59,605 nucleotides of DNA from Bacteroidia bacterium. Lineage in GTDB: Bacteria > Bacteroidota > Bacteroidia > UKL13-3. The DNA lies in NCBI GenBank assembly GCA_025454975.1, contig JALONK010000016.1, forward strand, positions 1 to 59,605, written 5' to 3'. The first letter of the stretch is position 1; every line of letters begins with the position of its first letter. Positions 10,364-40,382 of this stretch are shown piece by piece. The position numbers and the translations under genes are program-made. Under the pieces are notes generated by a model. That model worked only from the letters and a program-made list of their open reading frames with translations. It searched no databases and was not told the DNA's origin.

Positions 10364-10427
10364 TGGGTATGCTTAAATGTTTAAGATTTAGTGAAGCAAG
10401 ATAATAAATTGTGCGTACTAAAATGAT

Positions 10428-10444
10428 AGTGTATAGGATACACC
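10428..10444. promoter_or_regulatory. Palindrome resembling the PUL operators, upstream of lysA
   Basis: AGTGTA-TAGGA-TACACC contains the perfect core GTGTA-N5-TACAC. The core and spacer length match the palindromes near 35204 and 37864. It is 65-81 bp upstream of the lysA ATG. With only ten matching bases it may be a chance occurrence. Confidence 0.3.
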
Positions 10445-10474
10445 TAACTAATTTAGCATATCAGGCTGATTTAT

Positions 10475-11230
10475 TTATTGGGCTGCCTCATCCATCATTT
10501 GTTTAGCCAAATCGTGACCAAGATAGCGGTCAATACCGGCGTGCACAAGGTACAATACAGGTGTAAGTAATACAGCCACTATAAATTTATAAATATAATT
10601 TACAACACCAACAGCAAGTACCAGCTTAAGAGGCCAATTACCTCCGATATAAAAAGCAATAATCAGTACAACAAAGCTATCAATGAATTGTGAAACTAAG
10701 GTTGAGCCGGTGCTTCGCAACCAAAGTCCTTTATCACCAGTTTTAGTTTTGATAAAATGAAAAGTATAAACATCTACTAATTGTCCGAACAAAAAAGCCA
10801 CCAATGAACCTATGATTATCCATAAGCCTTGACCAAATACTTGGCTAAATGCCTCTTGCATATTAATAACACCACTTGCAGTTTGTTTGGTTACCCAAAA
10901 TCCTGCCGGAGCTGTATGAATGGTAGCATACACAGCAATAAAAGCATAAGAAATTAATACAGCAGCGATATAAGAAAACAAACGAACACCGTTTTTTCCA
11001 TAATACTCATTAATAATATCAGTCATTACAAACACAACAGGCCAAAGCAATACACCTGCCGTCATATTAAACGAATAGGTATCTCCCAACAGTTGTAAAG
11101 TAAAAGGTTTAATGCCGAGAGTTTCTTCCACCGAAAATATTTTAACACCAACAAACTCAGCAATTATAGCATTGGCAATAAAAAATGAGCCTAACACTAA
11201 GTATAAAATTGTACGTTTGGATTCTTTCAT
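10475..11230 (-). CDS. yhhQ: Queuosine precursor transporter (YhhQ/VUT family)
   Basis: This inner-membrane protein of 251 residues has about six to seven hydrophobic helices. It matches the family that imports queuosine precursors (preQ0/preQ1 or related) for tRNA modification. Characteristic stretches are the early N-A-I-I-A-E-F segment, the acidic VMTDIINEYYGKNG loop at about 88-101, and the late STLVSQFIDSFVV segment. It is somewhat longer than the E. coli protein, as is usual in Bacteroidota. It begins 9 bp after the stop of the metallo-hydrolase gene, so the two share a transcript. No preQ1 riboswitch was recognised, and the short gap leaves no room for one here. Confidence 0.88.
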   Translation of the reverse strand: MKESKRTILYLVLGSFFIANAIIAEFVGVKIFSVEETLGIKPFTLQLLGDTYSFNMTAGVLLWPVVFVMTDIINEYYGKNGVRLFSYIAAVLISYAFIAVYATIHTAPAGFWVTKQTASGVINMQEAFSQVFGQGLWIIIGSLVAFLFGQLVDVYTFHFIKTKTGDKGLWLRSTGSTLVSQFIDSFVVLIIAFYIGGNWPLKLVLAVGVVNYIYKFIVAVLLTPVLYLVHAGIDRYLGHDLAKQMMDEAAQ

Positions 11231-11239
11231 GAATTCTAT

Positions 11240-12646
11240 TTATAAATTAAACTGCTCACCAACTTGTGGAATGGCAATATGTTGAAAACCTTGTTGCTCT
11301 AATAAAGTTTTTAAATGAAGTTGAGCGGGTTGGTCGCCATGCACTAAAAACACCTGTTTTACTTTTTGTGGTTTTAGGTGGTCGAGGTAGCGTAATATCT
11401 CTTCATAATCAGCGTGTGCACTAAAATAATCCATACTTACCACATTACATTTTACCTGAAACATTTCACCAAAAATGCGAACTTCTTTCTCCCCTGCTTT
11501 TAATCGTCCACCTAAACTTTCAGGGGTGCAATATCCTACCAGTAAGACAGTATTTTCTGGCTGATGCAAATGATTGGCAATATGGTGTTTGATACGACCA
11601 GCTTCGGCCATTCCTGATGCAGAAATAATGATACATGGCCCCTTATAATCATTTATCTTTTTTGATTGTTCAACATCACTTACATAAGTGAGGTTTTGAA
11701 ATCCAAATGGATCATCATCAGTTTTTAAGTAGGCTAAAAATTCGTCGTTATAACATTCTTGATGTCGTTTAATCACTTCAGTAGCTTTAACTGAAAGCGG
11801 GCTATCAACAAAAACTTTAATATGAGACAACAGTCCTTTGTTTGCAAATTTATTAAGCATAAACACAATATCTTGTGTACGATCAACACTAAATGCGGGA
11901 ATAATTAGTTTTCCTTTTTGATGAATACAAGTTTGTTTGATTACGGATAAAAATTCCTGTTCAGCATCATATCCACGGGGATGAAGACGATTACCATAAG
12001 TACTTTCCGTTATCAATACATCGCATGGACGGAAAGGTTGGGGTGTTCGTAAAATTTGATCATTAAATCTTCCAATATCACCACTAAAAGTAAGTTTAAT
12101 TTTGGTATTATCTTTTTCTGTTAAGTCGAGATGAACTGAAGCACTACCAAGCAAATGACCTGCATCAGTAAAGGTAAGTTGAATACCTTTTTCGATGGTA
12201 ATAGTTTCTTCATATTCCACAGGAACCATTAAATCAATTACTTGTTCAACATCATCAACATCATACAAAGCTTCTATTGGAATTTCACCTCTACGAATGC
12301 GGCGTTTATTAACATGTTTTAAATCTTCTCGTTGAATAAATGCAGAATCTAACAGCATGATTTCACATAAAGAAATGGTAGCGGGTGTTGCAAAAATTAC
12401 ACCTTTAAAACCTTCCTTTATCAGTCTGGGTAATAAACCTGAATGATCAATATGAGCATGAGAAAGAATAACGTAGTCTAGGTCGTATGGCTTAAAACCA
12501 AAATGTCGATTTCTATCCTCACGGTTATCAACTTTACCTTGAAACAATCCACAATCCAACAAAATTTGTTTTTGATTGGCGGTTGTAATTAAATGTTTGC
12601 TGCCGGTAACGGTTTGTGCCGCACCCCAAAATTGTATGGTTGCCAT
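11240..12646 (-). CDS. MBL-fold beta-CASP metallo-hydrolase (putative RNA-processing nuclease)
   Basis: This 468-residue cytoplasmic enzyme is of the metallo-beta-lactamase/beta-CASP group, related to CPSF73/YSH1-type nucleases. The zinc motif H63-A-H-I-D-H68 is intact. Further metal ligands sit in TDAGHLLGSA and the GDIGR segment. The beta-CASP insert carries TESTYGNR and the ISASGMAEAGR motif. The C-terminal RNA-specificity domain has MDYFSAHADYEE and FLVHGDQPAQ. The start is taken at the ATG giving MATIQFWGAA; an upstream in-frame ATG three codons earlier is possible. It is cotranscribed with yhhQ. The likely role is RNA maturation or decay; the substrate is not known. Confidence 0.9.
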   Translation of the reverse strand: MATIQFWGAAQTVTGSKHLITTANQKQILLDCGLFQGKVDNREDRNRHFGFKPYDLDYVILSHAHIDHSGLLPRLIKEGFKGVIFATPATISLCEIMLLDSAFIQREDLKHVNKRRIRRGEIPIEALYDVDDVEQVIDLMVPVEYEETITIEKGIQLTFTDAGHLLGSASVHLDLTEKDNTKIKLTFSGDIGRFNDQILRTPQPFRPCDVLITESTYGNRLHPRGYDAEQEFLSVIKQTCIHQKGKLIIPAFSVDRTQDIVFMLNKFANKGLLSHIKVFVDSPLSVKATEVIKRHQECYNDEFLAYLKTDDDPFGFQNLTYVSDVEQSKKINDYKGPCIIISASGMAEAGRIKHHIANHLHQPENTVLLVGYCTPESLGGRLKAGEKEVRIFGEMFQVKCNVVSMDYFSAHADYEEILRYLDHLKPQKVKQVFLVHGDQPAQLHLKTLLEQQGFQHIAIPQVGEQFNL

Positions 12647-12695
12647 ATACAGCAATATTACGGAAGTTTAACGGATTGAAATAATACATAAACAT

Positions 12696-12723
12696 AAAAG
12701 CCGAAGTAAACACTTCGGCTTTT
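12696..12723. terminator. Rho-independent terminator after the large secreted protein gene
   Basis: A perfect 11-bp stem, AAAAGCCGAAG (12696-12706) and CTTCGGCTTTT (12713-12723), surrounds a 6-nt loop. It lies 31 bp past the stop of the 12754-18729 gene and separates it from the metallo-hydrolase operon. Confidence 0.85.
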
Positions 12724-12753
12724 ACAATTGATGAAAAATTATAACAGGGCAGT

Positions 12754-15700
12754 TTAGCGCACAATTACTACTTTTTTGGTAGTTGAGGCTGTTTGCGACT
12801 GCACCCTGATATGATAAATTCCTTCTGATAATTCGCCCGTGCGTATGATTAACTGCTCTTTCGCTTGGCTTGATGTTGAATAAACTAATTTACCGGTTGC
12901 ATCAAACAATAATACTTCAACAGCTTCTAAAGTAGGCAGCTTAACAGTAACCAAGTCGTTTGCCGGATTTGGGAACAATTCAAATGCAATGCCTTTGTTT
13001 GCGTCTAACAATCCTACATTTGATTTGCGTTTAATCAATATATTAAAAGGAGTAGCTTGAATAGAATCTTCTGCTTCAATAGCCCTAACTGTCCAGTTTA
13101 ACAAAGCACTATCACCAACAGCCACACCGGCGCTTGCCAATAAACCATCAATAGCACTTTCAGTTAAAGTAATGCTTGTTGAAGTTCCATTATTATCACT
13201 TAAGAAAGATGCAAAAGGAGTGTTAAAGTTACCCGAAGGCAATTTTATCAACCAACGATAAGTTGAAGCATTATTACTAGCTTGCCAAGTAATAACAACT
13301 GAATTACTGCTTGTTCCACTTACCTCTATCTTAGCATTATTTGCTGGAGTACTTAAATTAAACGAACCTAAAATACGTGCACGAACTAATGTAATATTAC
13401 GTTCGGTTGTTGCCTTTATTGAATCACTATTACGGTATGCATATACTGTCCATTTAACAGTAGTTGAATCAGTACGTTTAACACCTAATGATTTTAATAT
13501 ACCATCTAATGTATTTAAATTAATGGTTAGTGCAGTATCAATGCCATTATTATTAGAAGGCAATGATAAAATTGGTGCATTAAAACTTCCATTTAAGGCT
13601 GTTGCCATCCATTTATAAGAAGTAGCATTTGCGCTTCTATTCCATGTGATTAATAGGTTTGATGAACTACCTTGTTGTGCTTCCGCTCTTGCACCATTTA
13701 TTGGTGATATCAAGTTGAAACTACCCGGTAATACCGGAGCAGGAGCTGCTCTAACCAATAATAAACTAAAGCTTTGGCTAGCCATTAATGAATCAGTTCC
13801 ACGATAAGCGTAAACCGTCCACTTAGTAGCAATTGAATCACCTTGAGCTACATTTTGTAAAGCTAAGAATGCATCAATTATACCAGTAGTTAATATTAAT
13901 ACTGAATCACTGCCATTATTAGCTGACGGTAATGTAAGTAAAGCATTGGTAAAGCTGCCTGAAGCAGAAGTTATCATCCATTTGTAGGTATTAGCATTAG
14001 CACTTCTTGTCCAGTTTATGATAACAGGTTGCTGTCCTCCTGCATTAGTTACCAACCTGGTATTGTTTGAAGGAGCAAGTAAATTAAAGTTGCCAAGTAA
14101 TACAGGAACCGGTGCACTCCTTACCAACCTCAAATTAAAATCTTGAGCAGCTTTTAATGAATCGGTTCCTAGATATGCAAAAACTGTCCATTTTGTTTCA
14201 ACTGAGTCACCTTGTGGTAAATTAAGAGAAGCAAGTAGTGCATCAATTGCACCGGAGGTTAAGGTTAATGCCGTATCAACTCCATTATTGTTTGATGGTA
14301 CAACAAGTAATGGTGCAGTGAAATTTCCTGCGGCAGTTGTAATCATCCATTTGTAGCTTGTAGCATTTGTGCTTCTTCTCCAATTGATATTTACAGGAGA
14401 GGTAGATTGAGATGTAGTTACTACTCTTGCATTATTAGCAGGAGCATTTAAGTTGAAAGCACCAAGTGGGATGATGATATCACGCTTGCGTACGCCATAC
14501 AATTGATAACCGGTGGTACATCCTGTGCTACCTGAACAAAATTGTGCAAGTATGCCTTCGAAAATAAAAATTCCATTTGGTATTGATAATGCAGGGGCAT
14601 CTTCCATCTCAGTATCTTGTGCTGCAATAACACGTAAAATAGTTGTATCGTTAGTATTCGAACCATCCCAAACAGTATAATTTGTGCTGGCTGTAAAACT
14701 TCCTGAAACATTAGTTCTTAATCCAACTATTCTTACCAGCCTGCTTTCAAATGCTTCACCGTTTGTGTTTAATTGATTAACAGTAATGGTAACCGGAGTT
14801 ACAGTGCGATTAGAAGCAAGTATCGTAATTGAATTGGTTGATGTGTAATTACCTGTTGCTAATTGAATTTGTTGGTAGTTGTTAAAATCATTTCTTGGAC
14901 CAATCACTTCAACACTATCACCTTCTTTTAAAGTTCCATTAGATATAGCAGTTACCATGCTTCCTGATGATTGACGAACACCAATGCCTCCTGTTACATC
15001 TTGAATATAAATAAATCTACCCCAAGCACGAGTTACTACGCCTCTAACTTTTACCGTATTTGGTGATGCAACAGCACGAGCAGCGGCAATCGTAACAGGC
15101 GGATTAGTTTCAGGGAAAATGGCATCAGGTCTTGCATTTAAGAGTTGAATACGTCTGTCGCCAAACAAGTTTGTATCCCTAACATTGTAGGCATTCTGTG
15201 TGGTTTGATGACGGGCTAACATATATTCTGCAAATGCATCTTGCTCGCTTCCTATGCCGGCAAATGTTGCTGTTCCCGTGGTTTTAATAGCTGTATCTAA
15301 ATTTACCCTTGAAGTAATGTTTGAAGGGAATGGATAACCATCACCACCAATTGGTGAACCGGCCCCAGAAGGATTAGCTAGAAAGTTTAGGGTTACAACT
15401 TTTATTATTCTTGAGGTATCACCATGTAATAAACCATTTCTAACAATTGTATCTAGGCGATTACCAATTGAATCTGTAATTACCAACGACCATAATTTAT
15501 TTCCTGTTGCCCTTGTAGTGTCATAACTAAAAGCAACACCACCAACTTGAGGAAACTGGCCCGGAGTGGCACCCGGACGTGTAGCATTTATACCATGCTC
15601 GAATAACCTGCGTAAGCCTGCTGCATTGGTTGAAACAATTACAAGACTGTTATTAAAACGCAATGAATTTTCAATATCTAATTGTGAAATATCTCCTGCT

Positions 15701-29057: not shown

Positions 29058-29924
29058 TTATTGACAACCAAACTCAAGCTTAGCTTTTTCTTCCGTTTGA
29101 TCCGCAGCACTATTCCAAACCGCCTTTCGTACGGTGATTTCTACAGAAATAAGTTTATGTGTTAAAGGCACAGCGAAGAAACGATTCGGAATCATCGTAA
29201 TTTTAAATCTTCCATCAGTCATTTTCTTCATTTTTAATTTAGCATTTTCAGTAACCCTAAAAAATTTAGCAGGTTCAATATTTGTTCTCACTCCCGTTGC
29301 TGTATCTTCAATAACTGCAATCATGTGCATGTAAACTTCATCAGATCCAAGATTTTTCATGCTCGCCTTACTTTCGAGAGGATTATCGTAAATAACTGAA
29401 GTAATTTGATCTCCAAACATGATTCGCGGAACAGAATATAATGTACCTCTGTCTAATTTTGGAGGAGCAACAGTAAGGTTAAAATCCTCTGTTTTTTGAT
29501 CGGGATCACCATATCCACCACCATCTTTTGGTTTAACCAAAAATGAAATACCTGCTGCATAAACTGCGTTTGCATCAACTCCATAAAACTCTGTTGGAAT
29601 CATTTCGTAATACCAAACATTAGTTCCTTTAGCTTCATCTTTAATCATAACCAACTTATCATTACTACTTTTCCAAGGACGGTCGCCGGTGCCATTAACT
29701 AATGAATCAGCTCTGGCTTCGGTAGGTTTCCATGTCCAAATGTAATAAGGCCCGTCAGGGTTAGCTTTCATACCATCAGCAGTTGATGCTGTTGTTTTAC
29801 TGATATCACAATAAATACGCACAGGTTTTGTTACATCAGGATTTTCAGGTTCAATCCAAGCTGCTTGTCCATTAACCCCCAAATAGGTAAGTATCCCAAA
29901 TAAAATAAATATTATACGTTTCAT
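29058..29924 (-). CDS. PUL accessory surface protein (possibly DUF4961 family)
   Basis: This 288-residue exported protein has a signal peptide (MKRIIFILFGILTYLGVNG, then Gln). The mature part begins WIEPENPDVTKPVRIYCDIS and looks like two or more beta-sandwich segments, with a WTWKPTEARADS segment and conserved aromatic residues suitable for sugar stacking. It is the last gene of the operon susC-susD-DUF5004-this gene, the place where Bacteroides carries susE/susF. I recall such proteins as DUF4961 in glucan PULs, but the name is unsure. The likely role is a surface glycan-binding component; direct binding evidence is absent. It starts 2 bp after the preceding stop. Confidence 0.72.
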   Translation of the reverse strand: MKRIIFILFGILTYLGVNGQAAWIEPENPDVTKPVRIYCDISKTTASTADGMKANPDGPYYIWTWKPTEARADSLVNGTGDRPWKSSNDKLVMIKDEAKGTNVWYYEMIPTEFYGVDANAVYAAGISFLVKPKDGGGYGDPDQKTEDFNLTVAPPKLDRGTLYSVPRIMFGDQITSVIYDNPLESKASMKNLGSDEVYMHMIAVIEDTATGVRTNIEPAKFFRVTENAKLKMKKMTDGRFKITMIPNRFFAVPLTHKLISVEITVRKAVWNSAADQTEEKAKLEFGCQ

Positions 29925-29926
29925 AT

Positions 29927-30439
29927 TTAGTTCTTTTTCATTATTAAATTAACCGACATAACTTTATCTGTTCCACAAAATGCATTTCCTTGATAACTTA
30001 TTCTTGGAGCCAATCCTAATAAGTTTGAGGTAACAGGAACTCGTCCAATAACTGCACCATTTGCATCCTTTAAGTCAATTGCTGTTGGAAATCTATCATC
30101 GTCGAAAGTCCAGCTACCACCTACAGCACCAAAGTAATTAACCATTAAGCCAACAGTATCAACAGTAAATGTTTTATTGTTGTTGTCAAAAGTAATATTA
30201 GGAGCCTTAGCACCATCTTCAGTGAAAAAATCAGTAATATCAATAGATTCTTTAGTTAAGGAAAGCTCATCTGTTTGTAAACCTCTATCTAAAGTCCATG
30301 TGCCGTTTATAGCACTAGCGAGTTTTTCAGGAGAATATTTAGGCTGAGTATCTTTGTCATAGTCATAAGGTTTTTCGCAACCCCATAGAATGATACTTGA
30401 AAATGCTAAAATAAAAGCTGTATGTTTTAAACTTTTCAT
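29927..30439 (-). CDS. DUF5004-like lipoprotein of the PUL
   Basis: This 170-residue lipoprotein has lipobox Cys21 (SSIILWGC). The mature part contains INGTWTLDRGLQTDELSLT and SIDITDFFTEDGAKAP, which fits lipocalin-like DUF5004 proteins, followed by a WTFDDDRFPTAIDL strand pair. It sits between susD and the accessory surface gene with gaps of 13 bp and 2 bp, inside the operon. It is probably anchored at the cell surface and helps the SusCD complex bind its glycan. The family function is not established. Confidence 0.75.
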   Translation of the reverse strand: MKSLKHTAFILAFSSIILWGCEKPYDYDKDTQPKYSPEKLASAINGTWTLDRGLQTDELSLTKESIDITDFFTEDGAKAPNITFDNNNKTFTVDTVGLMVNYFGAVGGSWTFDDDRFPTAIDLKDANGAVIGRVPVTSNLLGLAPRISYQGNAFCGTDKVMSVNLIMKKN

Positions 30440-30452
30440 ATTTCTAATTTAA

Positions 30453-31880
30453 TTAATTACATCCTCCCGTAGGATTAAAAATAAAACCTCTTACTGTTCC
30501 TGCCGATGCAGGAAACTGAAGCACCATTCCATTACAATTCCAAGGAGCATTTCTAATGGTAATAACTGTTGAAGGTTGGGTAGCACCAATTCTTTTTAAT
30601 TGTGTTATACGATCACCTTCAAGGTGCATTTCTAATCGGCGTTGTAATCTTATTTCGGCTAACAATGCAGGCCCGCTAAGTGCATTAACTGCAAGTTCTT
30701 TATTTGCTGATGGTGAATATGCACGTTTGATAATCGGTAATAAATCGGCACGTGCAGCACCTGCATTTTCCTTAATGGCATAAATTTCGGCGCGCATTAA
30801 TAACATATCTGTTAAGGTTAAATATGGCGATGCAAAATCATTCATATTATATTTAGTAGAAGCATAAAATTCATTCGCTTCTCCTTCATTGATAATCTTA
30901 ACCATATTCCTTCTTATATCAGTTGTATCTGACCTTAACAAGGTAGCTAATTCTCTCGATAATCCCATAATAGGAAGGTCTGTAGGACCTAAATTATCAT
31001 TTCTGTAGTTCGCTTTAAAGGTTGAACTTCTTGAATTAATATCATAAGGAGTTCCGGTTGTTACAAAACCAAAGATAATTTCTGATTCTGTTTCATTCCT
31101 TCTAAAACGATTCAAACTATCTGTTAGGGCATAACCAGCACCAATTACTTCAGTTAATAAAGGAAGAGCGTCATCATATCTACCCATAGTAAAATATACT
31201 TTCCCTAATAATGCTTTCGCAGCCATTTGGTTGGCATATACTCCATTTGATACAGGTAGTTTTTGAATTGCCTCGGTTAAATCACTGATGATAAAATTGT
31301 AATTAGAAGCAACAGAAGTGCGGAGTACAACTTCATTAAGTGCACGTTTACGTTCGATAATACCTAAGTGTGAATTATCTGCAGTATAGCCGGCAGGTTG
31401 TGCCCAAAGTTTAACTGTTTCGAAATGGCACAAGGCACGTAAAAATCTTGCTTCACCTTGCATACGATCTTTCTCTACTGATGATAATTGTATATTATCC
31501 CAATAACGATCCATTATATTTACCCTGTAAATGGTAAAATAAGGTTGGCTATATGCACCACCAACTTCACCATTAAACTCACTACTGGTTCTGTTATAAA
31601 TACCTGTTAAGTTACCGTCATTATTGGAAGGGCGGCTTACATCATCAGATAATAAATCATTAATAAGTTGGAAACGACCATTCATCATGTTTGCGCAAGC
31701 GTCATAACATGAAAGCAACAATTGTTGCATATCATCGGGCGTTTGAATTGCTTCATCCGGATCAATTCCAAAAGAAGGATCAGGTTCTATTTCTAAAGAT
31801 TTTTTACATGATGTAATAGCAACAGTGCTTAAAACTAAAGTTGACATCATGATCAATACATGTATATATTTTTTATTCAT
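30453..31880 (-). CDS. susD: SusD/RagB-type glycan-binding lipoprotein
   Basis: This 475-residue surface lipoprotein caps the SusC transporter and binds the oligosaccharide. The lipobox Cys25 (STVAITSC) is followed by the usual KKSLEIEPDPSFG. The helical TPR-type scaffold shows RFLRALCHFETVKLW, MAAKALLGKVYFTMGRYDDALPLL and the C-terminal RRLEMHLEGDRITQLKRIG, all SusD hallmarks. It follows susC by 14 bp. The gene name reflects family, not proven starch specificity. The GH31 and glycan-binding genes of the same locus point to an alpha-glucan. Confidence 0.95.
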   Translation of the reverse strand: MNKKYIHVLIMMSTLVLSTVAITSCKKSLEIEPDPSFGIDPDEAIQTPDDMQQLLLSCYDACANMMNGRFQLINDLLSDDVSRPSNNDGNLTGIYNRTSSEFNGEVGGAYSQPYFTIYRVNIMDRYWDNIQLSSVEKDRMQGEARFLRALCHFETVKLWAQPAGYTADNSHLGIIERKRALNEVVLRTSVASNYNFIISDLTEAIQKLPVSNGVYANQMAAKALLGKVYFTMGRYDDALPLLTEVIGAGYALTDSLNRFRRNETESEIIFGFVTTGTPYDINSRSSTFKANYRNDNLGPTDLPIMGLSRELATLLRSDTTDIRRNMVKIINEGEANEFYASTKYNMNDFASPYLTLTDMLLMRAEIYAIKENAGAARADLLPIIKRAYSPSANKELAVNALSGPALLAEIRLQRRLEMHLEGDRITQLKRIGATQPSTVITIRNAPWNCNGMVLQFPASAGTVRGFIFNPTGGCN

Positions 31881-31894
31881 TTGTTCAGTCCTCC

Positions 31895-34800
31895 TTAAAA
31901 TGTCGCTAATATTTGAATATTGTAGGTTCTTTCTTGAGGTGCATTTAAGTAATAAGTACCTTGTGCTTGCATATTACGAGATTGGTTAATATTACCTTCA
32001 CCATCGCGTGCAATTTCAGGATCTAAGCCGGGATATTTAGTTAACACAAATAAATTGGTACAAATAACGGCTACTCGACAACTGGTTGCTTTAAACTTTT
32101 TAGCCACACTATTCGGAAGCATATACCCAAGCGTTAAATTACGTAAACGAATGAAACTTGCATCGTATAAAAACATTGGGGTATTGTATTGCCAGTAATC
32201 CGGCAATCCATAGGTGCTAGGATTTAAAGTTAAACGAGGGAATGCAGCAACATCGCCCGGTTTTTGCCAACGATCTGCAACTTCTGCTCTACTGTTCCAG
32301 AAACTCATTACACCTAGTTGACGTTTAGCTGATGCATCATAAATATTCCCACCAATTTGGAAATTAAACAATACAGATAAGTCCCAGTTCTTATATCTAA
32401 ATGTATTGGTAATACCGCCTACAGCCTTAGGCAAAATATTTCCAACAGGAACGCGGTTTGCAGGTTTCCACTCAAATGTTTCGTTACCATCTTTATCTAA
32501 ATAAATCGGACGACCTGATTCAGGATCTACACGTGAAAAGCGCACTAAATAATATGTTCCAACAGGTGAACCAACAACCACACGGGTATCATTCGTTCCG
32601 CCACTAACAGCCTCTTCGGTATAATCACCTGTGCTTGTTATTTCATTAAAGTTACGAGCAATTACAAAGGTGGTTGTCCAACGGAATTTTCCTTTCTGAA
32701 TATTGCTTGATTTAATAACCATTTCTGCTCCATAGTTTCTAATTCCTCCAACATTATCGAAATAATTACTGAAACCAACAGAAGGATCGGTATTTAAATT
32801 CATAATTACATCAGATGTACGTTTATCATATACATCAATACTTCCTGTGATGCGATCGTCAAAGAATCCAAAGTCTAAACCAATATTAGCCGTCCATGAA
32901 GTTTCCCAACGTAAGTTTTCATTTTCAAGTTTGGTTGGATATAAAATACTTTGACCATTGTAGGCAAGTAAATTTGTTCTTCTAAAAAATCCGAAGCGTG
33001 CATTAGGGTCGAAATCAGAATTTCCACTTCTACCATAAGAAGCTCTTAACTTAAGAAAACTTATTTTTTTGTTACCTCTTAAAAATGATTCTTCGCTTAT
33101 CACCCAACCTGCCGACACAGCCGGGAAAAATCCATAACTGTAGTTTGAACCAAAGCGAGATGAACCATCGTAGCTAAATGCAATCTGTGCGTAATATCTT
33201 TCTAGTAAATTATAATTTACCCGACCAAATATGCGTTCAAATCTCCATTCAGAAGGTACTCCATAATCTTTTACTCTTGAACCACTTTTTTCGTTATTTC
33301 GAATTAAGTCTTCTGCAAATCTTTCGAACATAAAAAAGCCATTCGTTAGTGATTGTTGTCTTTCGTAACCTCCAACAGCCTCGAATTTGTTGTATTTATT
33401 GATATTATATTTATACGTTAACTGTGCTGTATAGTTGTAATTACGAGTATAACTGGCACCTCTCGCTGCTGTCCCTGTTGTGTCGCTACCTGTTGTTTTA
33501 TTCAATTCTGCCGGAGCGTATGAATCATCACCGATGCTTTGGTAATCATAATTACCTTGAACGCGTAGCTTTAAATTTTTGATAACCTCGTATTCAACGG
33601 CCAAGTTGCTTATCGAACGGTTTTCAACAGTTTGCCATTTGTATAAATCAAGCATCATAACAGGATTGGTTCTGAAAGATGCATCTGAGTTGTTAAACAA
33701 AAAATAACTTCCATCGGGATTTCTAACAGGATAAAATGGCAATGCAGATGACATCAACAAACCATAACCTCCGCTCCATCCACTAAATACTCTATTATTA
33801 ATTCCTCGATTAAATGATGTTCCAAATTGAATTTTAATTTTATTGTTAATTTTATAATCACCATTGATGCGAGTTCCTACACGGTTGAATGAATTTCCTC
33901 TTACAAATGTTTCATTATAACCATAAGACAAACTTGAATACAACGAAAATTTATTCCATGCCTTAGAAATGGTTAAGTCATTTTGTGTTTTTAAACCTAC
34001 CTGGGTTAATTCTTTATACCAATCAGTATTGTGTTGACGGGTTTCGTCCCAAGTCATGTTGCTAATACCAAAACGAGATAAATCAGGTTTACCAACATTA
34101 CCATCATTTATCCATGCTTCTTCCATTAAGTTTAACAATTCATCACGTCCAACTAAATTAGGTCGAGCAGTGGGTGTCGACAAACCAAATTGAGTTGAAA
34201 AATTCACTCGCATCTTTCCTTTCTCTGCACGTTTGGTAGTAATTACAATTACACCATTGGCACCACGTGAACCATATATTGAGGTAGCAGCAGCATCTTT
34301 TAACACTTCCACACTTTCAATGTCGAAAGGGTTGATTGTTGCCAATGGATTAAAGTTAGCACCACCCGAATTACCATAGGCGCCATAATCTTGAGTGATT
34401 GGAATTCCATCTACAACATATAATGGATCACCACCTGCAGAAATGGAAGAGATTCCACGAATACGAATAATACTTGGCGAACCGGCTAATCCGCTCCCTT
34501 GTGTAACAGCAACGCCGGCTAACTTACCTTGTAAAGCTTGCTCAAAACTTTGAACGGGTAAATCATTTAATTCACGGTTACTAATTTTAGAAACGGCCGA
34601 TGTAATTTCCCTCCTTTTAATTGTACCGTAACCAACAACCACAGCTTCGTCTAAACTCTGCGGATCATCAATCATTTTTACGTTCAACTCCAAGGTTTGA
34701 CCTGCACTAATTTCAATAGCCTTGTATTCGGTTTTTAAACCAATAAAGGTAAAACGAACTTTGTATTTTCCCGGGCTAACATCATTTACCAAGTAAAATC

Positions 34801-34960
34801 CATTTACATCGGTTTGACCACCTTTTTGTGTGCCTTCAATAAAAATACTTGCCCCTACAATTGCTTCGCCCTTTTCATCGGTTACTTTTCCTTTTATAGT
34901 TTGCGCTTTTGATAAACAAGCGAGAACCATAAAAATTGTGAGTAGTAGTGTTTTTCTCAT
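31895..34960 (-). CDS. susC: SusC/RagA-type TonB-linked outer-membrane transporter
   Basis: This 1021-residue transporter imports glycan oligosaccharides. It has a signal peptide (MRKTLLLTIFMVLACLSKA). A carboxypeptidase-like domain with IKGKVTDEKGEAIVGASIF occupies about 22-105. A TonB-box-type segment (DEAVVVGYG) follows, then the plug with the SusC signatures GKLAGVAVTQGSG and ESVEVLKDAAATSIYGSRGANGVIVITTK. The C-terminal barrel ends NIQILATF. It is the first gene of a four-gene operon. Its upstream region is shared with the divergent binding-protein gene and contains two AAAGTGTA-type palindromes, so both sides are probably controlled by the Nudix-fold regulator. Confidence 0.97.
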   Translation of the reverse strand: MRKTLLLTIFMVLACLSKAQTIKGKVTDEKGEAIVGASIFIEGTQKGGQTDVNGFYLVNDVSPGKYKVRFTFIGLKTEYKAIEISAGQTLELNVKMIDDPQSLDEAVVVGYGTIKRREITSAVSKISNRELNDLPVQSFEQALQGKLAGVAVTQGSGLAGSPSIIRIRGISSISAGGDPLYVVDGIPITQDYGAYGNSGGANFNPLATINPFDIESVEVLKDAAATSIYGSRGANGVIVITTKRAEKGKMRVNFSTQFGLSTPTARPNLVGRDELLNLMEEAWINDGNVGKPDLSRFGISNMTWDETRQHNTDWYKELTQVGLKTQNDLTISKAWNKFSLYSSLSYGYNETFVRGNSFNRVGTRINGDYKINNKIKIQFGTSFNRGINNRVFSGWSGGYGLLMSSALPFYPVRNPDGSYFLFNNSDASFRTNPVMMLDLYKWQTVENRSISNLAVEYEVIKNLKLRVQGNYDYQSIGDDSYAPAELNKTTGSDTTGTAARGASYTRNYNYTAQLTYKYNINKYNKFEAVGGYERQQSLTNGFFMFERFAEDLIRNNEKSGSRVKDYGVPSEWRFERIFGRVNYNLLERYYAQIAFSYDGSSRFGSNYSYGFFPAVSAGWVISEESFLRGNKKISFLKLRASYGRSGNSDFDPNARFGFFRRTNLLAYNGQSILYPTKLENENLRWETSWTANIGLDFGFFDDRITGSIDVYDKRTSDVIMNLNTDPSVGFSNYFDNVGGIRNYGAEMVIKSSNIQKGKFRWTTTFVIARNFNEITSTGDYTEEAVSGGTNDTRVVVGSPVGTYYLVRFSRVDPESGRPIYLDKDGNETFEWKPANRVPVGNILPKAVGGITNTFRYKNWDLSVLFNFQIGGNIYDASAKRQLGVMSFWNSRAEVADRWQKPGDVAAFPRLTLNPSTYGLPDYWQYNTPMFLYDASFIRLRNLTLGYMLPNSVAKKFKATSCRVAVICTNLFVLTKYPGLDPEIARDGEGNINQSRNMQAQGTYYLNAPQERTYNIQILATF

Positions 34961-35158
34961 ATTACAATTTACTTAATCATTTTTTTAATTGAGTAACTTT
35001 TTAAATTTCATTGTTTTTTAATTCAAATTTTACAATTCAAAGAACCTAAAAAATTTAAACAGCACTTTTTAATTAACTAATTATGTTTAAAACTATCACA
35101 TTTATCTAGGCTTTTACAATGTTACTTCTTATTGATGTAAGCCTTAAATAAAAAGAGT

Positions 35159-35177
35159 AAGTGTACTTTATACATGA
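35159..35177. promoter_or_regulatory. Second, weaker PUL operator candidate
   Basis: AAGTGTA-CTTTA-TACATGA keeps the left arm and the TACA of the right arm of the palindrome seen at 35204 and 37864, with the same 5-bp spacer. It lies 45 bp from the strong site (four to five helical turns), which would allow cooperative binding or looping in the divergent susC/binding-protein region. Confidence 0.45.
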
Positions 35178-35203
35178 ATTAGCATATGCGATTTAAAAAA
35201 AAG

Positions 35204-35224
35204 AAAGTGTAATTCCTACACTTT
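35204..35224. promoter_or_regulatory. PUL operator: perfect palindrome AAAGTGTA-N5-TACACTTT
   Basis: The 8-bp arms at 35204-35211 and 35217-35224 match perfectly around ATTCC. The right arm runs into TTTTG (35222-35226), a reasonable -33 element for the promoter of the 35281 gene, so a bound protein would block it. A near-identical palindrome lies at 37864-37884 in front of the regulator and GH31 genes. Confidence 0.72.
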
Positions 35225-35256
35225 TGTTTTTTTATTTAATATTTATGTTATATTCG
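35224..35256 (+). promoter_or_regulatory. Putative promoter of the secreted glycan-binding gene
   Basis: A -33 TTG (35224-35226, within TTTTG) and a -7-like TATATTCG (35249-35256) are 22 bp apart. This implies a start near 35262 and a leader of about 19 nt before the ATG at 35281. The -33 overlaps the operator's right arm. Confidence 0.45.
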
Positions 35257-35280
35257 CTTTACATAAAACAAAAATTAAAG

Positions 35281-37002
35281 ATGAAAAAATTATTACTCAT
35301 GACTGCGGCACTTGGGTTATTCACCGGTGCTTTTGCAAAAAAAGTAAAGTTTCAGGTTGATATGACCGGACAAACCGTGAGCAGCAATGGTGTACACATT
35401 GCGGGTAACTTTCAACAAGAAGCCGGAGCTTCCGGTAATTGGAAACCAAATGAAACTAGATTAACCAATGGTGGCAGTGGTAACATTTATTCTGTTGTGG
35501 TAGATGTTATCGGTGGTCGTAACTACGAGTTTAAATTTATCAACGGTAACGATTGGAATCTTCCGGGTGGTTCACCTGAAGATGTTCCTGCATTATCACG
35601 TGTTGGTCATCCTATTAATAAAGGTGATAACGGAAACAGATGGGCATGGATTGATTCAGCAGGTAGCGATACTATGGTTATGCCGGCATTTTTGTTTGCC
35701 GGAGCAGCACCGGCAGGAAAAATAGCGGTTCGTTTTGGTGTTGATTTACAAAAAGAGGCTTCGATAGCTGCTGATGGTGTTTTTATTGCAGGTGCATTTA
35801 CCAATTGGGGTTCGGGTCAACGTCGCATGGTAAACTTATTTAGTAATAATAAAATATATGAACACATTGCCATCCTTGATTCAGGTGTTGCTTATCCTTA
35901 TAAGTTTAAAAACGGTGACAATGGTTGGGAATCTGTTCCATCGGCTTGTGAAGTTGGTACGAACAGAGAAGTTAAAGCGTCTGCAAGCACAGCATTAAAT
36001 TTAGTTTGTATTAATTCTTGTATCGCCTGTCCTACTGCCCCACTTCCTCGTTACAGAGCTTCATTTATCGTTGATATGTCAAGCTCAACTTGTTTTGGTG
36101 GATTTGATTCAGTAACAGTTGCAGGTAACCGTCCTGAACTTACAAACTGGACAACAGGTGCGCGTTTAAATAAAATGGGTAATACTGATATGTATGTAGC
36201 AGTAATAGAGATGGATTCGGGTGAAGCTAAATTTAAATTCCGTAACCATAAAAATAATACAACCAATTGGGAAGGCGGAGGAGACCGTGTTTGGGTATTA
36301 AGCGCAGATGATACTTTAGATTTAACTTGTTTCGGTTCAAGAACTGTTGGTCCTTGCCCTAGCAAACCCGCACCTTCTAAAATTACATTTACTGTAGACT
36401 TATCTGATGAAACTCCTGATGGACAAGGTCGTATTTATGTAATGGGTACCTTTACTCAACCAAGCTGGCAAAGTGGAGCCATTCGCTTAACTCCTGTTAG
36501 CGGAAAACCAGGTTTTTATAGCACAACCATAAACGATGTTTGTCCTGGTACATTCGATTATAAATTTGTTAATGGTGATTCATCTAATGTTAGCTCAGAA
36601 GAAAGTTTTGCAGATACAACTGACCGCGCTTGTACTGTTCCTAATGGAATAGGTGGATGGAATAGAACTTACACCAGAACATCTGCAAATGATGTTACTT
36701 TAGCTTATGTTTTCAGTAGCTGTAAAACTGCTAATGTTGGTTTGTTAAAAAGTAATGCAGTATTACAAGGTATTAATGTTTATCCTAATCCTACTGAAGG
36801 TAATGTAACAGTTTCGTTCCAAGAGGCTGGCAACTACCAAGTAGTAGTAAGAGATATAACAGGCAAAACCTTAGTATCATACCAAGACATTACTGCTGAT
36901 AAATTAAATATCAACAAAAATGATATCACCTCAGGAATTTTATTAGTACAAGTTACTAACCAACGTGGTGAAACTAAAATTGTAAAATTAGTAGTTCAAT
37001 AA
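35281..37002 (+). CDS. Secreted four-module glycan-binding protein with T9SS signal
   Basis: This 573-residue protein begins with a signal peptide (MKKLLLMTAALGLFTGAFA); an in-frame extension to 35224 would spoil it. Four related beta-sandwich modules resembling starch-binding CBM20/CBM48-type folds follow at about 20-145, 150-258, 262-365 and 368-485. Each has a VDM or VDL strand, an [IV]-A-G-x-F or V-M-G-T-F strand, a W-x-[ST]-G turn and a [YF]-K-F-x-N-G/N-H end. Cysteines are paired between modules. The C-terminal 85 residues form a type IX sorting domain (INVYPNPTEGNVTV, GILLVQVTNQ). No catalytic domain is present. It is divergent from susC and next to the regulator, so it probably captures glucan at the surface, taking the place of SusE/SusF. 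Confidence 0.82.
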   Translation: MKKLLLMTAALGLFTGAFAKKVKFQVDMTGQTVSSNGVHIAGNFQQEAGASGNWKPNETRLTNGGSGNIYSVVVDVIGGRNYEFKFINGNDWNLPGGSPEDVPALSRVGHPINKGDNGNRWAWIDSAGSDTMVMPAFLFAGAAPAGKIAVRFGVDLQKEASIAADGVFIAGAFTNWGSGQRRMVNLFSNNKIYEHIAILDSGVAYPYKFKNGDNGWESVPSACEVGTNREVKASASTALNLVCINSCIACPTAPLPRYRASFIVDMSSSTCFGGFDSVTVAGNRPELTNWTTGARLNKMGNTDMYVAVIEMDSGEAKFKFRNHKNNTTNWEGGGDRVWVLSADDTLDLTCFGSRTVGPCPSKPAPSKITFTVDLSDETPDGQGRIYVMGTFTQPSWQSGAIRLTPVSGKPGFYSTTINDVCPGTFDYKFVNGDSSNVSSEESFADTTDRACTVPNGIGGWNRTYTRTSANDVTLAYVFSSCKTANVGLLKSNAVLQGINVYPNPTEGNVTVSFQEAGNYQVVVRDITGKTLVSYQDITADKLNINKNDITSGILLVQVTNQRGETKIVKLVVQ

Positions 37003-37030
37003 CCCACATAACTATTAAGAAAAGAATTGC

Positions 37031-37056
37031 TCAGCCTTCATTTTTATGGAGGCTGA
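37031..37056 (+). terminator. First of two hairpins after the glycan-binding gene
   Basis: TCAGCCTTCAT and ATGGAGGCTGA form an 11-bp stem with one G-U pair, a 4-nt loop and then TTTC. It is a weaker terminator in front of the strong one that follows. Confidence 0.5.
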
Positions 37057-37060
37057 TTTC

Positions 37061-37095
37061 AAAAAAAAAGCTGCGAAAAACTCGCAGCTTTTTTT
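37061..37095. terminator. Strong bidirectional terminator between convergent genes
   Basis: The stem AAGCTGCGA (37068-37076) / TCGCAGCTT (37082-37090) is flanked by an A-tract and a T-tract. It lies between the secreted binding-protein gene and the regulator gene and can terminate both. Confidence 0.92.
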
Positions 37096-37113
37096 GTTTC
37101 ATATCGGTTTAAT

Positions 37114-37818
37114 TTATTTGAATGTATATAATCGAGCAGGTTTATATAATACGCCTTTTTGTTTTTCTTCAAGCTCAACAATAACATCATCTTTTTTAAA
37201 ACGTTTAGTGAAATTGCGTTTATCAAACGAAGTATTTAGGATGGCTTCATAAAGATTTTGCAGTTGACGCATGGTGAACTTCTCAGGTAATAATTCTTGA
37301 GCAATTTTATCGGATTCTAAATGAAGCCTAATGTTGTCTAAAGCTCTTTTTACAATTGAATTATGGTCAAAAGCTAATGGAGGTACACGTTTGGTATTCT
37401 TCCAAACTACATTACGCGCAAATGAACCGGGTACCGGACGAATCATTTCTTTCCGCACTAATGTATAATAAGCTACAGTGATTACGCGAGCCTCAGGATC
37501 ACTTCTATATAAATTAAGCCACTCGCGATCTTTAGCCTGTTTAACACGCATTGGATCGCCAAAGCAGTAAAACTGACGAAGGTTTAAACCTTCAACATGT
37601 GTTAGTTCCTTAAGAACTCGTTCTGCTGCTGCATCCAGTCCTTCATCCTCATTTACCAAGTCGCCGGGCAAGGCAAATTGAGGTACAAATTCCATTGGAC
37701 TTCTTTTGGCAGGTTCTTTTTGTTCAATTAATAAGGCTTCCAGTTTATTATTTTCTTCATCATAACCGAAAATAACACAGTCAACCGAAATGTGTTTCCT
37801 AAAAGAATTTCTCTTCAT
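37114..37818 (-). CDS. NrtR-like Nudix-fold transcriptional regulator of the PUL
   Basis: The 234-residue protein has a Nudix fold (about 8-150) followed by a winged helix (about 160-228), the architecture of the NrtR family. Several members of that family in Bacteroidota control sugar catabolism. The Nudix box is degenerate: in place of GX5EX7REUXEEXGU the protein reads GDLVNEDEG...AERVLKELTHVEG, so hydrolase activity is unlikely and the domain probably senses a small ligand. The C-terminal half has FTMRQLQNLYEAIL and FDKRNFTKRFKK, typical helix-turn-helix wording. The palindrome at 37864-37884 lies between this gene and GH31, and a copy stands before the divergent susC. The inferred role is local repressor released by a sugar signal. 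Confidence 0.88.
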   Translation of the reverse strand: MKRNSFRKHISVDCVIFGYDEENNKLEALLIEQKEPAKRSPMEFVPQFALPGDLVNEDEGLDAAAERVLKELTHVEGLNLRQFYCFGDPMRVKQAKDREWLNLYRSDPEARVITVAYYTLVRKEMIRPVPGSFARNVVWKNTKRVPPLAFDHNSIVKRALDNIRLHLESDKIAQELLPEKFTMRQLQNLYEAILNTSFDKRNFTKRFKKDDVIVELEEKQKGVLYKPARLYTFK

Positions 37819-37863
37819 TAATGGGGGAATATTTAATAAACACTACTAAATTAAAATAATTAC

Positions 37864-37884
37864 AAAGTGTATTTTGTACACTTA
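37864..37884. promoter_or_regulatory. PUL operator copy: AAAGTGTA-N5-TACACTTA
   Basis: The arms at 37864-37871 and 37877-37884 match the 35204 site at 15 of 16 positions, with the same 5-bp spacer (TTTTG). It stands between the divergent regulator and GH31 genes. The spacer contains the likely -33 TTTTG of the GH31 promoter, so binding would occlude it. Confidence 0.72.
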
Positions 37885-37931: not shown

Positions 37932-40382
37932 ATGAACAAATTTTTCTCTCTAATCAGCTTAATGATTTTGTCAACCGTACTATCAGCCCAACATATGTTG
38001 AGTAAAGATTTAGGTAACCTGACATCATTTGTGAAGCATGCGAATGGAATAACGATAAGTGCAGCCAATGGTTCAGCAAGAATACTGTTGTATTCGGCAG
38101 CAGTAATAAGGGTTGAAATTAGTCAAAATAACAGCTTCAATGATTTTAGTTATGCTGTTATATCTTCACCAAAAAATGAGTTATTTAATATTAACGAAAC
38201 ACCTGAACAAATTGAATTAACTACAGATTCATGTAGACTTGTTATCGCAAAAAAACCAATAAGAATAAAGCTGTTAAACAAGAAGGGGGAAGTTTTAAAT
38301 GAGGATGAACCGGGCTTTGGTACAAATTGGATTGGTGAAGAAATAACCACATATAAAAAAATGCAAGAGGGTGAAAGATTTGTTGGATTGGGAGAAAAAA
38401 CAGGAAACTTGGATCGTCGTGGAGAAGGATATACAAATTGGAACACCGATTTTTTCGCTTATCCAAGTAATGGTGATCCTCTTTATGTAACCATCCCGTT
38501 TTATATTGGCATTCATAGCAACAGGGTATATGGTTTGTTTATGGATAATACATTTAAATCGCATTTCAATTTTGGTGCTTCCAACAATCGTTTCAGTTCT
38601 TTCACTGCCGAAGCCGGTACAATGAATTATTATCTGTTTGCGAATTCAACCCTTGAAGAAATAATTAAATCATACACTGATTTAACCGGACGTATGGAAA
38701 TGCCATCATTGTGGAGTTTAGGTTTTCAACAATGCAGGTATTCTTATTATCCGGAACAAGAAGTTTTAACGTTAGCAAAAACCTTTAGAGACAAAAAAAT
38801 CCCATCAGATGTATTGTATTTCGACATTCATTATATGGATGCCTATAAAATTTTTACTTGGGACAAAAGCAGGTTTCCTCAACCCGCTAGAATGTTAAAA
38901 GATTTAGAAGGCATGGGCTTTAAAAATGTTGTAATTGTTGATCCCGGCATTAAGGTAGAAAAAGGATATCAAGCTTATGAAGAAGGTTTAGCAGGAGATT
39001 ATTTTATTAAATATCCCGACGGCACCAATTATACAGGCCAGGTTTGGCCGGGATGGTGCCATTTTCCTGATTTCACTAATCCAAAAGCTAGGACTTGGTG
39101 GGGAAATTCGTTTAAAGGTTTGGTTGATGATGGTATTGATGGTTTTTGGAACGATATGAATGAACCTGCAACTTGGGGACAGAGATTTCCTGATTTAGTG
39201 GAAGCAAATTGGGAAGGAAAGAAAACATCGCACCGAGAATGGCATAATGTATATGGTTTTCAAATGGCAAGAAGCACATTTGAAGGCACAAAAAAATTAA
39301 TGAACGGCAAACGCCCTTTTATCTTAACACGTGCAGCATACTCAGGTATTCAAAGGTATTCGGCCATTTGGACAGGTGATAACAGACCTGAAGATGACCA
39401 TATGTTGGCAGGAGTTAGATTAGTAAATAGTTTAGGCTTAAGCGGGGTTGCAAATGCCGGATATGATGTAGGTGGATTCGCAGGTGAAGCATCAAAAGAA
39501 TTATTTTGCAGATGGATGCAAATTGGTACTTTTTGCCCATTTTTCAGAAGCCATAAAATGATCGATGCTAAAGATAGCGAACCATGGAGTTATGGCGAAA
39601 AAGTTGAAGAAATCGTAAGAAACTATATTTCATTACGCTATCGTTTAATGCCTTATTTATACAGCTCATTTTACCAATCCACACAAACAGGAATCCCGGT
39701 AGCAAGAAGTCTAGCAATATCATATACCTATGATCCGATGATTTATGATACCAAATATCAGAACCAATATCTTTTTGGTCATGGTATCTTAGTTGCGCCC
39801 GTTGCAAGTAATAAAGACATCGCTAAAGTTTACCTTCCACAAGGAACTTGGTATAATTTAAATAACGAACAAAAGTTTACCGGCAAACAAGAAATTTATG
39901 TTGAAACACCAATGGAATCATTACCGGTTTTTGTTAAAGGTAGTAGCATTATTCCCATGCAACAAGTGGTGCAACATGCCGGTGAATCAGCAGGCGACAC
40001 GTTATTTATACACATTTATCAAGGTAGCGAACAAAACTCGTTTGTTTATTATGAAGACGCAGGTGATGGTTATGAATATGAAAAAGGCCAGTTTTATAAA
40101 AGAAACATAACCTATAATCCAAACAAAAAAGAGGTACTTTTAGAAAAAGCAGAAGGAAGTTTATCTTCTAAATATAAGGTTGTAAAATTTGTGATGCATG
40201 GTTTTACTGCCAACCAATTTGTAACAAACAATGTAAAAACTAAAGCATCAACAGAAACAATAGAAATGATTCCCGGAGTATCACAATTCGACCCCATTGG
40301 AAAACGTATTGAAGCATTAAAAGCTTCTGTATTCACTTTTAGTGTTAAGTGGGATACAAACAAAATTACCATCTCCTGGTAA
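37932..40382 (+). CDS. GH31-family alpha-glucosidase
   Basis: This 816-residue exported enzyme has a signal peptide ending LSAQ. The N-terminal beta domain (about 30-255) contains the substrate-loop segment FVGLGEKTGNLDRRG. The catalytic barrel carries the nucleophile Asp408 in GFWNDMNEP and the acid/base Asp483 in WTGDN. The substrate-binding WCHFPDFTNP, GYDVGGFAG and CPFFRSHK stretches are typical of alpha-glucosidases, not xylosidases. C-terminal beta domains include VYLPQGTWYNL and FVYYEDAGDGYEYEKG. It hydrolyses alpha-1,4-type (or other alpha) glucosidic bonds, releasing glucose, probably in the periplasm. It is divergent from the Nudix-fold regulator with a shared operator. Confidence 0.95.
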   Translation: MNKFFSLISLMILSTVLSAQHMLSKDLGNLTSFVKHANGITISAANGSARILLYSAAVIRVEISQNNSFNDFSYAVISSPKNELFNINETPEQIELTTDSCRLVIAKKPIRIKLLNKKGEVLNEDEPGFGTNWIGEEITTYKKMQEGERFVGLGEKTGNLDRRGEGYTNWNTDFFAYPSNGDPLYVTIPFYIGIHSNRVYGLFMDNTFKSHFNFGASNNRFSSFTAEAGTMNYYLFANSTLEEIIKSYTDLTGRMEMPSLWSLGFQQCRYSYYPEQEVLTLAKTFRDKKIPSDVLYFDIHYMDAYKIFTWDKSRFPQPARMLKDLEGMGFKNVVIVDPGIKVEKGYQAYEEGLAGDYFIKYPDGTNYTGQVWPGWCHFPDFTNPKARTWWGNSFKGLVDDGIDGFWNDMNEPATWGQRFPDLVEANWEGKKTSHREWHNVYGFQMARSTFEGTKKLMNGKRPFILTRAAYSGIQRYSAIWTGDNRPEDDHMLAGVRLVNSLGLSGVANAGYDVGGFAGEASKELFCRWMQIGTFCPFFRSHKMIDAKDSEPWSYGEKVEEIVRNYISLRYRLMPYLYSSFYQSTQTGIPVARSLAISYTYDPMIYDTKYQNQYLFGHGILVAPVASNKDIAKVYLPQGTWYNLNNEQKFTGKQEIYVETPMESLPVFVKGSSIIPMQQVVQHAGESAGDTLFIHIYQGSEQNSFVYYEDAGDGYEYEKGQFYKRNITYNPNKKEVLLEKAEGSLSSKYKVVKFVMHGFTANQFVTNNVKTKASTETIEMIPGVSQFDPIGKRIEALKASVFTFSVKWDTNKITISW

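Follow-up and report, generated by a model that had tools for sequence, protein, structure and literature searches.

Starch genes in the Bacteroidota are, in the textbook picture, controlled by SusR or by hybrid two-component systems, and the locus described here raises the question of how such genes are regulated when the regulator in their midst joins an inactive Nudix domain to a winged helix. The locus lies in a window of 59,605 nucleotides, the whole stretch of DNA that was analysed, from the genome of a Bacteroidia bacterium. On the reverse strand, a SusC-family TonB-dependent transporter (31895–34960; TIGR04056, 3e-232) is followed by a SusD-family lipoprotein (30453–31880; PF14322, 4.1e-17) and, downstream of susD, by a DUF5004 gene (29927–30439) and a gene without family match (29058–29924); both encode probable PUL surface proteins and have counterparts of equal lengths and order in two related loci (L086 and L087). 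The forward strand encodes, at 35281–37002, a secreted protein whose domains are of the starch-binding type (CBM20/CBM48/X25-like) and which has a T9SS sorting tail, and, at 37932–40382, a GH31 alpha-glucosidase-type enzyme with an apparent signal peptide (PF01055, 1e-120), the single GH31 found in the genome. The regulator gene (37114–37818, reverse strand) encodes 234 residues, with the inactive Nudix domain at about residues 8–165 and an NrtR-type winged helix at 175–233. It was placed in an earlier note between the susC-side and GH31-side regions, which is correct, except that the gene at 35281–37002 went unmentioned there; because this gene separates susC from the regulator, the susC-side operator lies between susC and the starch-binding-type gene. 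Between the converging starch-binding and regulator genes, a hairpin and the T run after it (GCTGCGAAAAACTCGCAGCTTTTTTTG, 37068–37098) likely form a terminator common to both. A reading of the intergenic DNA as an RNA element was dropped, the Rfam scan matching tRNA only.

By its architecture, an N-terminal Nudix domain and a C-terminal NrtR winged helix, the regulator is assigned to the NrtR family, and within it to the predicted sugar-responsive (AraR/XylR-like) branch. Pfam returns NrtR_WHD (PF21906; 9.7e-22, 77.3 bits against a cut-off of 27), AraR_C (2.4e-6) and, weakly, NUDIX (PF00293; 4.5e-5, 23.9 bits against a cut-off of 21.1). The Nudix signature GX5EX7REUXEEXGU is impaired, as it is absent from the regulator, where the region reads GDLVNEDEGLDAAAERVLKELTHVEG. 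The closest solved relative by sequence in the PDB search (3.2e-27) is BtAraR (BT0354; PDB 5BS6, 5DD4, 5DDG and 5DEQ), the NrtR-family arabinose repressor of B. thetaiotaomicron, which regulates arabinan PUL genes (PMC4666351). The two proteins are about 33–36% identical and have in common the Nudix and winged-helix domains and a degenerate Nudix box. In agreement, the AlphaFold model of the regulator (mean pLDDT 87.9) finds its best structural match in arabinose-bound BtAraR (5deq_A; Z 22.6, 2.6 Å over 200 residues, 36% identity). Shewanella oneidensis NrtR (3GZ5, 3GZ6 and 3GZ8) shares the fold and domain layout (Z 18.6), but it is an ADP-ribose sensor of NAD metabolism whose ligand contacts are lost in the regulator. 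The description of a degenerate-Nudix/winged-helix, NrtR-like protein with its own readable operators at a PUL is upheld.

The base-reading helix of the regulator keeps the DKRNFxK of BtAraR, in which D178, K179, R180, N181 and K184 (the D-K-R-N-x-x-K groove residues) contact the major groove; the corresponding D199, K200, R201, N202 and K205 are all identical. Some wing contacts have changed, and the minor-groove residues K204 and R205 are replaced by Tyr and Lys. The operator in the BtAraR crystal is AAAGTGT-TACTTTT-ACACCCA (PMC4666351, Table 2), of the GTGT-N7-ACAC type, and its 21-bp layout is that of the regulator operator, AAAGTGT-N7-ACACTTT. The kept recognition helix and the matching operator layout make the motif the one expected for a protein with such a helix, so that the earlier claim of a directly readable DNA motif holds for a palindrome of the AAGTGT-N7-ACACTT type, and direct operator binding by the regulator is predicted.

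Two strong palindromes, both as the earlier note had reported them, lie in the window. Operator 1 (AAAGTGTAATTCCTACACTTT, 35204–35224), between susC and the starch-binding-type gene, matches AAAGTGTA-N5-TACACTTT exactly and has an equivalent position in orthologous loci. Operator 2 (AAAGTGTATTTTGTACACTTA, 37864–37884), between the regulator gene and GH31, differs from that pattern by one mismatch, and its location upstream of the regulator gene would imply autoregulation. These are the only two sites with zero or one mismatch in the whole window, and at up to three mismatches the window holds five matches, where shuffled sequence would give 1.08. On the susC side, the proposed weaker copy is present as sequence (TAAGTGTACTTTATACATGAA, 35158–35178, with one mismatch in its core GTGTACTTTATACAT at 35161–35175) at a distance of 46 bp from operator 1, but in relatives it showed no clear conservation. 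Genome-wide pattern searches gave 11 occurrences of AGTGT-N7-ACACT, against one for the reversed control pattern. A further exact GTGTA-N5-TACAC palindrome (ATAGTGTATAGGATACACCTA) occurs at 10426–10446 of the window, flanked by genes for a Vut_1 transporter and a PLP-dependent decarboxylase; no link to starch was seen there.

The palindrome is conserved together with the regulator. Our family set comprised 64 genomes, of which 13, including the source genome, carry an ortholog at at least 70% identity, and in all 12 other orthologs an in-register palindrome lies upstream of the regulator gene, with its far edge 68–134 bp from the start codon; in two of them (L089 and L090) it is degenerate (AATGTA..TACA) and alone not significant. 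Absence of the palindromes next to orthologous regulators, which the earlier note had named as evidence against the circuit, is therefore not what the relatives present. The wider set held 80 relatives, nearly all Bacteroidota, with one locus too short to test; at an operator score of at least 17, an upstream operator accompanies 50 of the 53 regulators that have an insertion beside the sensor pocket and 2 of the 26 that lack it, whereas for the reversed pattern the counts are 2 of 53 and 0 of 26. The Fisher p value for this association is inflated by the relatedness of the rows, a problem from which the reversed-pattern control is free. The tree is compatible with a single origin of the insertion (support 88/92). 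Strong sites in 21 loci (322 kb) are intergenic in 37 cases out of 38, the reversed control having three sites in total, and nearly all of them adjoin alpha-glucan genes. Likewise, AAGTGT-N7-ACACTT is present in 11 of 12 genomes with an ortholog and 3 of 14 without (reversed controls, 0), and by our count 17 of the 19 sites in ortholog-bearing genomes are at regulator-locus or GH13 genes. Conservation and the reversed-pattern controls rule out chance palindromes.

Other branches of the family look different. The source genome has a 38%-identical paralog of the regulator (C33:43-648; L007, 1–700), and in relatives of this paralog (L077–L079) the reading helix is changed to DKSNFRKK and the upstream palindrome is another one (around AAAGTA..TACT). 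Insertion-less relatives (L126, 10001–16260, and L132, L136, L138, L144, L146 and L151) stand beside SusC-like genes without an AraR-type operator, and in L126 genes resembling those for glucose-6-phosphate dehydrogenase, 6-phosphogluconolactonase, Edd, Eda and a kinase can be recognized by eye; these proteins probably form a separate kind of sugar regulator that recognizes a motif of its own.

The earlier note regarded the circuit as self-contained, a reading that we reject since operators also occur on other contigs, at GH13 genes and at a glucose MFS gene. Of the four GH13 genes that the genome contains, three have the operator. A C60 gene whose product has a starch-binding module bears it directly against the start codon (site at 112435); a T9SS GH13 gene on C76 is preceded by two sites, at distances of 30 and 222 bp; and on C69 (62562) the site separates GH13_489 from a GluP-type transporter of the MFS (TIGR01272, glucose/galactose-type), beyond which comes a kinase-like gene. 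For the remaining GH13 gene (C10), taken as a putative glycogen enzyme, no operator stands immediately upstream in its locus. In L086 and L087, the GH13_489, transporter and kinase-like genes are in one locus with GH31, the regulator, the starch-binding gene and susCD, and operators occupy three intergenic regions; in L092–L096 a T9SS GH13 is placed between the operator and susC. Genes that are scattered here and linked in relatives lend independent support to co-regulation, and their membership in one alpha-glucan (starch) regulon is well supported. Some operator matches in the genome are near unrelated genes (C41, C42, C60:89366, C3, C4 and C17), and those at C41, C42 and C60:89366 may be chance. 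A strong operator-like palindrome (C60:108519; around 2521 of L060) separates two genes in tandem, and the downstream gene encodes a fatty-acid desaturase; the palindrome is either chance or an unexpected target.

We consider it probable that the regulator, in the AraR/XylR-like branch of NrtR proteins, acts as a homodimer to repress a starch regulon that includes its own gene, and that a cytosolic sugar releases it from DNA. That it is instead a true NrtR, an ADP-ribose sensor for NAD metabolism with a PUL next to it by chance, is very improbable: a match to the NCBIfam NtrR model exists, though far under the cut-off (75 versus 400 bits), and the ADP-ribose contacts K76 and R98 of S. oneidensis NrtR are L72 and E109 in the regulator (correspondence via BtAraR, PMC4666351). 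No NAD genes were seen near the regulator and its alpha-glucan neighbours are conserved, so that pocket residues and gene context together rule this reading out. The direction of control is a closer matter, as the same operators could serve an activator. The starch-binding-type gene has a candidate -7 element (TATATTCG, 35249–35256, forward strand) 24 bp downstream of operator 1, and in most orthologs of this gene the operator ends 24–25 bp ahead of a conserved TATATTCG/TATTTTCG, a near-constant spacing; at the regulator promoters of L091–L095 the operator is just upstream of TTTG-N19-TATATTTG. Such positions just upstream of -33 would suit activation, but across relatives the operator takes different places with respect to the promoter (just ahead of -33, over -33 or over -7), and at the C60 GH13 it abuts the start codon. 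In our reading of the promoters, a TTG-N19-TATTTT can be drawn both at the C76 GH13 and between GH13_489 and the transporter, in each case with the candidate -7 inside the operator. The overlap of both strong sites with a -33 element, as claimed earlier, stands wherever a TTTG can be assigned (35223 and 37873), while the position of the operator shifts among relatives. This varied placement, including over -7 and at a start codon, fits a repressor better than an activator, and BtAraR, the closest characterised relative, loses DNA binding upon inducer binding, when arabinose rotates its winged helices (PMC4666351). We therefore infer that the regulator is a repressor, the best-supported control mode on operator geometry and the one the earlier note had proposed, and consider a mainly activating role unlikely; by analogy, the release mechanism of BtAraR may be carried over to the regulator.

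Repression leaves the ligand to be predicted from the sensor pocket and the gene context. Among the arabinose contacts of BtAraR, R86 and H131 are kept and R34 is Gln in the regulator and 12 close orthologs. Compared with BtAraR, the regulator has a longer beta2-beta3 loop and, after the R86 position and beside the pocket, about 15 inserted residues that include a conserved D-x-x-W-L (D97, W100 and L101) and are predicted to be partly helical (residues 95–104 of the AlphaFold model). Gene context narrows the predicted ligand to a glucose-type sugar. GH65 and GH77 were not found in the source genome, the lone GH31 is apparently exported and the co-regulated transporter is of the glucose/galactose type, which makes glucose the simplest cytosolic signal. 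D-glucose is thus our tentative prediction, at a little under even chances, and is favoured over maltose or a short alpha-glucoside, which we think rather doubtful; a sugar phosphate would be less probable again. As the specific inducer of starch genes, glucose would be unusual, the SusR of B. thetaiotaomicron responding to maltose. The same regulon could also respond to a disaccharide, maltose here and cellobiose in a sister group with GH94, and the insertion, adjoining the arabinose-binding R86, would then enlarge the site. Insertion-clade regulators are indeed found near GH65 maltose-phosphorylase-type genes (L089, L090, L097, L099 and L104), and in Geofilum and Marinifilum (L110 and L118) the regulator, which has the same operator, is followed by genes for a sugar symporter and a phosphorylase of family GH94. 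The L099 regulator diverges from genes for phosphofructokinase, GAPDH, a kinase-like protein, beta-phosphoglucomutase and GH65; in this locus, its gene is separated from GH13/SusCD by one (10739–13048) for a secreted protein with a CotH kinase domain. Maltose and cellobiose stay strong rivals in view of the enlarged region around the pocket and of the neighbouring phosphorylase genes, but GH65 and GH94 enzymes commonly yield glucose too, and with the enzymes and transporter of the source genome as they are, we hold the disaccharide reading to be somewhat unlikely.

Under the repressor reading, in the absence of inducer the winged helices of the putative homodimer would bind AAGTGT-N7-ACACTT and block the alpha-glucan promoters, namely those of the local SusCD, starch-binding protein and GH31, of the regulator's own gene and, elsewhere in the genome, of three GH13 amylase-type genes and the GluP-type glucose transporter with its kinase-like gene. 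Starch would be cut to glucose outside the cytoplasm, and the glucose imported and then phosphorylated. Once a cytosolic sugar occupied the inactive Nudix pocket, the winged helices would rotate and release the DNA, as in BtAraR, both dimer and allostery being presumed for the regulator.

Control of SusCD genes from the cytoplasm has a precedent in BtAraR, which acts on arabinan PUL genes through nearly the same 21-bp operator (PMC4666351). The control mode that the earlier note set apart from the usual hybrid two-component or SusR control is therefore not a first case. The operator type and recognition residues are those of AraR, yet the label AraR was rejected on the R34 contact and the targets, which are GH13, GH31, GH65 and SusCD genes in place of arabinose genes. 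XylR (BT0791) of Bacteroides is a predicted xylose regulator (PMC3878776), of the NrtR branch and a predicted regulator of a sugar pathway, likened here by description only; it differs in its predicted xylose regulon. In the open-access literature searched, AraR and XylR were the only sugar-branch NrtR members described, and no description of an NrtR-type starch regulator was found. SusR of the B. thetaiotaomicron starch system likewise controls starch SusCD and amylase genes, but it is an unrelated protein, a membrane-spanning maltose sensor. The chances are about even that the regulator represents an undescribed, phylum-wide NrtR-type subfamily that carries the D-x-x-W-L insertion, senses glucose or glucose disaccharides with its dead Nudix pocket and uses one nearly constant operator for alpha-glucan (GH13/GH31/GH65) and beta-glucan (GH94, GH5) genes.

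The regulator would thus provide starch genes with a cytoplasmic mode of control and a readable operator, which makes regulons predictable from genomes alone, uncultured relatives included. From arabinose to alpha-glucan and cellobiose-type loci, the DNA-reading helix and the operator would have stayed constant while the sensor pocket varies, a pattern of ligand switching in which the constant operator and the changing pocket make the evolution of Nudix ligands testable.
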